Shown here: in pieces, positions 14,933 to 16,771 of the stretch
Numbering within the stretch: the stretch's first letter is position 1
Layout: every line of letters begins with the position of its first letter
Source: Candidatus Saccharimonadota bacterium
GTDB lineage: Bacteria > Patescibacteriota > Saccharimonadia > Saccharimonadales > Saccharimonadaceae
Assembly: GCA_030527565.1 (NCBI GenBank)
Contig: JAUNAO010000001.1
Span: 1 to 20,092 of the forward strand
Length of the DNA: 20,092 bases
Direction of reading: 5' to 3'
The notes under the pieces: generated by a model
Database searches by the model: none
Told to the model about the DNA's origin: nothing
Seen by the model: the letters and a program-made list of their open reading frames with translations, nothing else
Translations under genes and position numbers: made by a program

Positions 14933-16771
14933 GTGCGCGAGATTCGAAACTTTTGCATCATTGCACATATTGATCATGGAAAGTCGACGTTAGCGGATCG
15001 GATGATGGAGCTGACGGGGACGGTTGAGAAGCGGGAGATGAAGTCCCAGCTTCTTGATTCCATGGAGCTTGAACGTGAAAAAGGAATTACGATTAAGTTG
15101 ACGCCGGTGACGATGGAATGGAAGGGCGTGCAGCTGAATTTGATTGATACGCCTGGGCACGTGGACTTTTCGTATGAAGTTTCGAGGTCATTACAGGCGG
15201 TTGAATCGGCGGTTTTAGTTGTTGATGCGACGCAAGGGATTCAAGCGCAGACACTCGCGAATGTCTATCTTGCGATCGAACAGGATCTCACGATTATTCC
15301 GGTAATTAACAAGATCGATCTTCCGGCGGCGGATGTCGAAAAAGTGGCGGCGGAGATTATGAATTTGCTTGGATGTTCAAGAGAAGAGATTATTGGAGTT
15401 TCTGCGAAGACGGGATTGAATGTCGAATCTGTGCTCGATAGGATTATCGCGGGACCTGAACCTTCTGCCGCAGGTCAGGGGGCGCTCTCCTCATCTAAAG
15501 AATCGGACCCGCGCCCGCCTAGAAACGACCTGCTTACAAAAGGTTCAGGTTTCGCAAGGGCGCTGATATTTGATTCGTATTTCGATGATTATCGCGGGGT
15601 GGTTTTGTATGTCCGAGTGTTTGATGGTGAGATTTTGAAGAATGCGGAAATTGCGATGATGGCGGCGGGAACGAAGGGTTTGGCGCTTGAAGTGGGAACT
15701 TTGACGCCAAAAATGTCGCCAGCGGCGAAGTTGTCGGAGGGGGAAATTGGGTATATTGTAACGAACTTAAAGACGACGCGGGAAGCGAAAGTTGGTGATA
15801 CGGTTACGATCGCGAAAAAGCCGGCAGTTGAAGCTTTGCCGGGTTATAAAAATGTGTTGCCGTTTGTTTATGCGGGCTTTTTCCCAGTCTCGAATGACCA
15901 GTATAAGGATTTGAAGGACGCGATTGAGAAGTTGTCGTTGTCGGATTCGGCGCTCCGGTTTGAGCCGGAAAATTCGCCGGTTCTTGGGTTTGGGCTTCGG
16001 ATTGGATTTTTAGGGCTTCTTCATATGGATATTATTCGGGAGCGGTTAGAGCGGGAATTTAAATTAGATTTAATTGTTACAAATCCTTCGACAAATTATG
16101 AAGTGATGCTCGCGAATGGTGAGATGGTTGAGATTAAGTCGGCGGCGGATTTGCCGGACGTTTCGGAAGTGGCGGAGATTCGGGAGCCTTGGGTTAAGGG
16201 GGAGATTATTTTGCCGAAGGGGATGATTGGGAATGTTTTGGAGCTGATTAACTCGAAGCGGGGACATCAGACGATTTTGTCGTATATTGAGGATCGGGCG
16301 GTGATTGATTTCGAAGCGCCGATGGCGAATTTGCTGACGGATTTTTATGATCAACTGAAGTCGGCGACGAGCGGATATGCATCGTTTAATTATGAATTAA
16401 ATGGGTATCGGGCCGAGGATTTGGTGCGGGTTGATTTTCTAGTTGCGGGGCATAAAATGGATGCGCTTTCGGTTATGGCACACGCAAAAGAGGCGGATGG
16501 AATTGGGCGTGAGGTGACGAAGAAGTTGAAAGAAGTGATCCCGCGGCAGAATTATGAGGTTGCTTTGCAGGCGGCGATTGGGGCGCGGATTATTGCGCGA
16601 GAAACAATTGGGGCGTATCGGAAAGATGTAACGGTTAAAATTCATACGGGGGATCGGGACCGGAAGGCGAAGTTGCTTCAGAAACAGAAGCGGGGGAAGG
16701 CGCGGATGAAGCGGTTTGGGAAGGTTGATATTCCGGCCGAAGCGTTTACGGTGATGTTGAAGCGCGATTAG
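14933..16771 (+). CDS. lepA: Elongation factor 4 (LepA) with in-frame insertion
   Basis: LepA is a ribosome-binding GTPase that affects translocation and ribosome assembly. The 612-residue protein has G1 AHIDHGKST (11-19), G3 DTPGHVDF, G4 NKID, then EF-G-like domains and the LepA-specific C-terminal region ending GKARMKRFGKVDIPAEAF. Residues G174-G206, between the G domain and FARALIFDSYFDDYRG, are extra: other LepA proteins have only a short GDP-type linker here. The extra DNA is a 97-bp nested palindrome with C-rich codons unlike the rest of the gene, and it keeps the frame open. It sits in a loop between domains, so the protein is probably functional. Translation starts at GTG 14933, 4 bases after GGAGG, in an operon with pnp. 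Confidence 0.96.
   Translation: MREIRNFCIIAHIDHGKSTLADRMMELTGTVEKREMKSQLLDSMELEREKGITIKLTPVTMEWKGVQLNLIDTPGHVDFSYEVSRSLQAVESAVLVVDATQGIQAQTLANVYLAIEQDLTIIPVINKIDLPAADVEKVAAEIMNLLGCSREEIIGVSAKTGLNVESVLDRIIAGPEPSAAGQGALSSSKESDPRPPRNDLLTKGSGFARALIFDSYFDDYRGVVLYVRVFDGEILKNAEIAMMAAGTKGLALEVGTLTPKMSPAAKLSEGEIGYIVTNLKTTREAKVGDTVTIAKKPAVEALPGYKNVLPFVYAGFFPVSNDQYKDLKDAIEKLSLSDSALRFEPENSPVLGFGLRIGFLGLLHMDIIRERLEREFKLDLIVTNPSTNYEVMLANGEMVEIKSAADLPDVSEVAEIREPWVKGEIILPKGMIGNVLELINSKRGHQTILSYIEDRAVIDFEAPMANLLTDFYDQLKSATSGYASFNYELNGYRAEDLVRVDFLVAGHKMDALSVMAHAKEADGIGREVTKKLKEVIPRQNYEVALQAAIGARIIARETIGAYRKDVTVKIHTGDRDRKAKLLQKQKRGKARMKRFGKVDIPAEAFTVMLKRD
15454..15550. repeat. Nested palindromic element inserted in lepA
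   Basis: Three nested inverted repeats share one centre: ACCTGAACCTT (15454-15464) with 15540-15550, GCAGGTC (15470-15476) with 15527-15533, and GGGCGC (15480-15485) with 15511-15516. The region is C-richer than the flanks, with codons such as GCC, CTC, TCC, GAC, CGC and AAC that the rest of lepA uses sparingly. It adds about 25-30 residues to a linker. It looks like a coding palindromic element of the kind known in Rickettsia (RPE), though no relationship is shown. Confidence 0.75.

Follow-up and report, generated by a model that had tools for sequence, protein, structure and literature searches.

Why does lepA, in the Saccharibacteria genome analyzed here (G000), carry an extra palindromic stretch, and how could such a stretch sit in a protein gene without breaking it? 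The window, i.e. the whole stretch of DNA that was analyzed (20,092 nucleotides of contig JAUNAO010000001.1), comes from this genome. A sequence-only reading had pointed to three inverted repeats (11, 7 and 6 bp) nested within 97 bp (15454–15550), and all three are present around one common centre (Table 1). The outermost, ACCTGAACCTT/AAGGTTCAGGT (11 bp), is itself nested in a 19-nt arm (15449–15467/15537–15555) that is 84% complementary. The 97-bp extent stands for the repeats and does not stand for the boundaries: the palindrome is longer at both ends, and the DNA added to the gene is probably shorter. By its coordinates the insert spans LepA residues 174–206, and in the alignment with E. 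coli LepA (3cb4) the extra residues are unmatched, falling after the KTG segment and before RALIFD, as had been proposed. The claim that its codons are C-rich relative to the host gene also holds: the element has 33% C and the remaining lepA 15%, with 26% in the highest host 97-nt window. The LepA reading frame stays open throughout the element. Folding of the RNA, named beforehand as a check, gave −47.4 kcal/mol for 15454–15550 versus −26.7 ± 3.4 kcal/mol for 200 dinucleotide shuffles (z −6.1; 0 shuffles as good).

Table 1. Features of the lepA element and its host gene in the window
Feature	Position	Strand	Basis
lepA, the gene that carries the insert; product elongation factor 4 (612 aa)	14933–16771	+	open reading frame; best PDB match 3cb4, E 9.3e-186
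Entire palindrome including outer arms, a family A copy	15449–15555	+	inverted repeat; fold computed on 15454–15550
Added DNA (approximate), 72 nt relative to the empty G015 allele (L102)	15482–15553	+	sequence comparison; boundary inferred
Left outer arm, codons G174-P-E-P177; GPEP likewise in the empty G015 allele	15454–15464	+	inverted repeats, G015 comparison
Right outer arm, the left arm copied inverted	15540–15550	+	inverted repeats, arm pairing scores
Second stem, left, GCAGGTC; likewise in the empty G015 allele	15470–15476	+	inverted repeats, G015 comparison
Second stem, right, GACCTGC	15527–15533	+	inverted repeats
3' bulge of six bases, AGAAAC; a bulge here recurs in many family A copies	15521–15526	+	folds, gap-free alignment
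Conserved core, covariance model R1 match	15477–15521	+	72.5 bits, E 4.9e-15
Inner covarying stem, left, GGGCGC	15480–15485	+	inverted repeats, covariation
Inner covarying stem, right, GCGCCC	15511–15516	+	inverted repeats, covariation
Conserved tip, CTCATCTAAAGAATC, in-frame reading SSKES	15490–15504	+	core pattern, alignment, frames

In G000 itself the element is single-copy, as neither blastn with the 97 bp nor covariance model R1 found a second copy there, and its mobility consequently rests on the relatives, whose genomes are drafts in many contigs. Two findings had been named beforehand as speaking against a mobile element, a single copy in the genome and the presence of the stretch in all related LepA proteins; the former is true, whereas the latter is false, empty alleles being present among relatives. 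Searching relatives with the 97 bp, as the sequence-only reading proposed, recovered the same core at other genes and in other genomes of the genus. Among 196 related genomes, 15 gave blastn matches at E ≤0.1, the weakest of which are chance hits, and in the clear copies a long hairpin is capped by the 15-mer tip sequence CTCATCTAAAGAATC or one close to it. R1, which was built from 15 copies including the lepA element of G000, was matched by 12 of the 116 genomes of the genus, with 62 matches altogether: 20 in G050, 10 in G043, 8 in G040, 7 in G013, 5 in G097, 4 in G041, 2 each in G015 and G024, and 1 each in G000, G014, G058 and G111. A 22-base core pattern was found in 15 stretches of genome_contigs, every one of them in a record titled (uncultured) Candidatus Saccharibacteria. 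The exact core pattern has 0 matches in viral_contigs, which speaks against a phage origin.

For the analyses below we used 24 family A copies. On the basis of folds and by eye, we dropped from the one-mismatch pattern hits a recurring sequence without a hairpin (L067, L068, L072–L074, L076–L078, L080–L082, L085, L087, L090, L092) and further hairpin-less hits (e.g. L058–L066, L069–L071, L079, L083, L084, L086, L088, L091, L097–L101), as well as the short blastn hits L043–L047 and L055. L093, whose core is altered, the divergent L095 and L096, which a contig end truncates, were excluded as well, and L075 is the same place as L042. The gap-free set A2 (15 copies) is without nine of the 24, namely those with shifted stems (L040, L041, L042, L050, L051, L052, L089 and L094) and L048 (core the same as in L036), and R1 therefore represents the main subtype.

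When lined up without gaps, copies of the main subtype share a conserved tip, an internal loop and a bulged G, and many have the six-base 3' bulge; the inner stem varies in sequence with its pairing kept. In the 15 cores 97.4% of cells are paired. Cells in which both sides have changed number 28, compared with 9.0 ± 2.0 after shuffling and 0–3 with slid partners. Two of the five measures in this covariation test do not stand out, namely pairs changed on both sides (6 versus 4.7 shuffled, a value reached by 82 of 500 shuffles) and further pair types (9 versus 7.1, reached by 66 of 500). Inspection by eye of G050 also revealed a variant of family A (L305–L314) in which the tip is swapped for various longer hairpins and the inner stem is kept.

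Eleven of the 24 copies lie inside long frames, defined as open for 200 codons or more and flanking the copy by no fewer than 30 codons at either end. Two copies lie in frames of 100–199 codons, one of them, L094, in a short fetched piece, and 11 lie outside. The 11 in-frame hosts are lepA and ten other genes, and the best NCBIfam matches of these ten are housekeeping families: pcrA, ileS (two), a TatD-type nuclease, leuS, argS (two), recJ and obgE (two). Four of these ten matches (pcrA, one ileS, the TatD-type nuclease and one argS) are below the curated NCBIfam cut-off, in the case of pcrA and that ileS, at least, owing to truncation of the gene in the fetched piece. Within genes family A is read in both orientations, giving either SSKES or an antisense peptide of the GSDSLDEES type, and the 15-mer tip has stops in three of its six frames. 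From the open frames we infer that the insert would be translated as a flexible linker.

The lepA linker itself, measured from KTG to RALIFD, provides the empty sites whose presence the sequence-only reading had proposed to check. It is 25 residues long in 19 of 19 parsed genes from other genera, and in the same genus it has 24–29 residues in 27 rows, 30–36 in 9 and 39–69 in 38. These 74 rows stand for 73 genomes, as G061 occurs twice (L116, L241), so that the short group amounts to 26 of 73 genomes; it includes L015 (a hairpin without a core) and L246 (a remnant). The 110 lepA loci fetched are genes with good matches, not a random draw; 98 entered the linker parse and 93 were parsed, the exceptions being L027, L240, L255, L273 and L280. 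Not entered were L103–L111 (split or with no upstream half), L114 (not lepA), L118 (a run of N) and L119 (cut). Among the lepA linkers listed that are shorter than 260 nt, 36 of 37 have a length divisible by three, and the exception has a run of N. The filled linker of G000 has 47 residues and the empty one of G015 has 26; the two LepA proteins are 94% identical over residues 206–612, and the G015 linker contains GPEP and no such palindrome. The G015 allele could be a deletion scar instead of a never-filled site, because GCAGGTCAGGGG is common to G015 and the left side of the element. The insert is also absent from uvrD and recJ of relatives, the recJ stretch measuring 66 nt in five relatives, 87–129 nt in four others and 168 nt in G040.

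Some relatives show other states of the lepA linker. In L015 (lepA of G028) the linker contains a hairpin that lacks a family core and whose ∼19-bp arms enclose a short loop, as a plain inverted duplication would give. Shortened in-frame linkers in L028, L246 and L271 (lepA of G077, G052 and G089) resemble remnants of families C or B (described below), which suggests loss through internal deletion.

Beyond the bulge, the arms of family A are specific to their place, save for a few related pairs, and constant terminal inverted repeats were not found among the 24 copies, where the outer arms vary by place. The two arms of a copy pair with a mean score of 17.2 (lowest 11), compared with 5.7 ± 1.5 for arms taken from different copies, and in 23 of 24 cases no other copy's right arm pairs equally well; high cross-copy scores are seen for L036/L048, L040/L050, L049/L053 and L056/L089. 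By eye, near-identical copies in G043 have two kinds of outer arms, both of which pair. The same behavior is found at lepA, where the ends of 38 long alleles pair with a score of 12.6 versus 5.5 ± 1.7 when swapped; these alleles are not independent of one another, the inserts of L009 and L010 being almost identical, and 9 of the 38 score 9 or less.

Comparison with the empty G015 allele bears on where the arms come from. The left arm in G000 matches the lepA linker, with GPEP and AGQG likewise present in G015, and the right arm is extra DNA, the inverted copy of the left; given the approximate extent of the added DNA, the left arm would be host sequence. A PxP motif occupies this linker position in 18 of 19 genes from other genera and in 18 of the 27 short rows from within the genus (18 of 26 genomes), and is kept in the left arm of only 16 of 38 long alleles. 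Because most long alleles have lost PxP, the left arm itself has been altered there, as copying in both directions would do. Since arms pair within a copy and the left arm is host linker, they point to template switching between the arms, of which host linker together with its inverted copy would be the mark. In G040, leuS and recJ have 95 bp in common at 97% identity, arms included. A unit complete with arms can therefore move and capture of host sequence may come later, which argues against a pure model of copying at insertion.

Two further sets of inserts use the same linkers. Family B (query, lepA of G056) was detected in 53 and family C (query, lepA of G085) in 46 of the 116 genus genomes at E ≤0.01, the weakest matches of both being short. 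We took one locus per genome from 30 of the 53 and 30 of the 46 genomes, and long open frames hold 24 of 30 copies in either family. Ten B/C host proteins were scanned and nine could be named (obgE, ychF, ligA, mnmA twice, trmD, tsaD, a TatD-type nuclease and exonuclease I); the host protein of L175 had no match in the family scan. Family B is read in several frames and both orientations, and its peptide is therefore not what is conserved. Family C is read in a single orientation in 24 of 24 copies, and many of its tips are CTTCGG, which we take to be a UUCG-type tip. The uvrD linker is occupied by family A in G040, by family C in G064 and by an insert that looks B-like by eye in G001, and the lepA linker is likewise used by families A, B and C, whose cores are unrelated. 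Hairpin inserts outside all three families were seen by eye in L123 (uvrD of G097) and L024 (lepA of G029).

Family A copies are dispersed and share a conserved core that covaries; relatives have empty sites, frames stay open across housekeeping genes, and the arms are place-specific and pair within each copy. The sequence-only reading's proposal of a mobile palindromic element that leaves the frame unbroken agrees with these features. In our judgment the 97 bp is quite probably a copy of a small mobile palindromic family of Saccharibacteria that inserts in open frame in protein genes, works in the manner of the Rickettsia palindromic elements (RPE), is translated as a linker and has its arms reworked by template switching. 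The hairpin would land as a unit, as the G040 leuS/recJ pair suggests, and replication or repair synthesis would later switch template between the arms. Such switching would keep the arms complementary, change both sides together and pull flanking host codons into the palindrome, and insertions that break the frame would be removed by selection. A wider proposal, which we advance tentatively and hold to be less likely than not, is that A, B and C are contagious hairpins free of a transposase: a conserved, structured tip spreads, and at each place template switching makes and remakes the arms out of the flanking host gene, which fuses element with target, the three families sharing this habit and the linkers.

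Pairing of the arms might also be maintained in a different way. The same mobile element could owe it to selection on folded RNA or single-stranded DNA acting through compensatory substitutions, with recognition by an enzyme or a function of the hairpin as the target of selection and no template switching. The conserved tip, internal loop and bulged base and the covarying inner stem are what selected structured nucleic acids display, the CTTCGG tips of family C fit the same picture, and homologous outer arms in G050 differ, by eye, through changes on both sides. Selection of this kind alone leaves unexplained why the lepA arms are inverted copies of the host linker and why the filled allele is longer (47 residues in G000 versus 26 in G015), and we regard it as possible, if on balance unlikely. 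Ordinary lineage-specific expansion of a linker with a chance palindrome draws on the variable length of inter-domain linkers; we give it practically no credence, given the z of −6.1 for the fold and a core common to unrelated genes and intergenic places, and a chance palindrome was rejected on that fold and the dispersed copies.

As to how family A spreads, a cellular reverse transcriptase might copy it via RNA. Of the 116 genomes of the genus, 68 have an RVT_1 match (66 over the cut-off), and G000 has two (G000:C39:1055–1762 and G000:C15:6027–6713), yet G040, ∼91% complete and with 8 R1 matches, has none, and the unit is without an evident constant end; this route seems improbable. REP sequences are small hairpins with bulges, and family A would resemble in this respect an element of the REP/RAYT kind, or another of IS200 type, that depends on a Y1 transposase for its movement. 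The carriers G041 and G024 are among the five genomes with a Y1_Tnp match, but those five (4 over the cut-off) are the only ones of 116, and no match was found in the carriers G000, G040, G050, G043 and G013, drafts that may miss the gene, so that we hold this origin to be very unlikely. We find it equally hard to credit that the hairpin is a programmed bypass or a self-removing insert (byp-like or intron-like) absent from the protein, as a strong hairpin in a coding gene and stops at the same point in lepA of some relatives might indicate. The insert stays open in a single frame in 24 of 30 copies of family B, 24 of 30 of family C and 11 of 24 of family A, and frame is kept in nearly all of the short lepA linkers listed (see above). 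In the stop-bearing lepA genes inspected, TATAAT and an ATG precede the second half and the layout is that of two genes, and Rfam 15 gave 0 matches in the window at gathering score.

The putatively translated mobile element that we favor is most readily compared with the RPE, which are ∼100–150 bp long, form a long stem-loop and are multicopy, both intergenic and in-frame within conserved protein genes (Ogata et al., 2000, 2002; PMC2229807). One fused enzyme, guanylate kinase, is described as active with changed substrate affinity. The palindrome here (107 bp) and the family C query (146 bp) fall within the 105–146 bp taken as the RPE size range, and copies are likewise dispersed between genes and in-frame in conserved protein genes. 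The element thus works like an RPE as far as these descriptions go, and the Rickettsia analogy drawn in the sequence-only reading appears apt as one of mode of life, without implying relatedness. In contrast to the RPE as described, the present elements belong to another phylum (the exact core pattern was found only in Saccharibacteria-titled records of the genome_contigs scan), their arms vary by place and are partly host sequence in lepA, a single linker can hold any of several unrelated cores, and constant terminal inverted repeats were not found in the 24 copies.

Protein-coding palindromic repeats have also been reported for Wolbachia (2005) and Methanocaldococcus jannaschii (2005) (PMC2229807); to judge from the titles these are similarly palindromic with coding potential, and the hosts differ. 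In Nematomorpha mitochondria, inverted repeats within functional protein genes form coding palindromes that are judged to be translated (PMC6649704). There both arms encode conserved protein and no mobile core is named in the abstract, whereas the core of our elements is mobile and their right arm is no part of the ancestral protein. In yeast coding DNA, template switching between arms homogenizes inverted repeats in genes (PMC8604942), which is the process proposed here, with no mobile element named in the abstract. The sequence-only reading knew of no such element in Saccharibacteria, and among the open-licence papers listed for Saccharibacteria and Patescibacteria, judged by title or opening of the abstract, we likewise found no report of one. 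REP/RAYT elements and MITEs are small non-autonomous hairpins as well; family A differs from the former in the rarity of Y1 transposase in the genus and may differ from the latter in that the outer arms of the 24 copies are not constant.

Palindromic elements fused into working genes have been recorded in Rickettsia, Wolbachia, one archaeon and, for some small repeats, enterobacteria, according to the overview available (PMC2229807). To these, one genus of Saccharibacteria with genomes of ∼0.3–1.2 Mb adds several families, hosted by genes for tRNA synthetases, DNA repair, GTPases and LepA, with up to 20 family A model matches per genome and empty sites in many close relatives. What is new relative to the known elements is the place-specific, partly host-made arms and the sharing of linkers by several families. 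Movement without an evident transposase and the upkeep of arm pairing in genic palindromes are thereby made testable, and odd insertions in predicted Saccharibacteria proteins, which could be mistaken for domains, are accounted for.

Several relatives have a lepA that is broken into two parts at this linker (L103–L109 and L111, from G059, G062, G020, G018, G047, G051, G053 and G046). The G-domain gene stops, another gene follows, and TATAAT and an ATG then restart LepA at RALIFD. The gene between the halves is presumably histidine-phosphatase-like in seven genomes (RHG motif or likeness) and aquaporin-like in G018. A split is also seen in L027 (G080), where only 105 nt with stops intervene, and L110 (G054) has no upstream half within the fetched piece. 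Elongation factor 4 may work as two proteins in the relatives with a split lepA.
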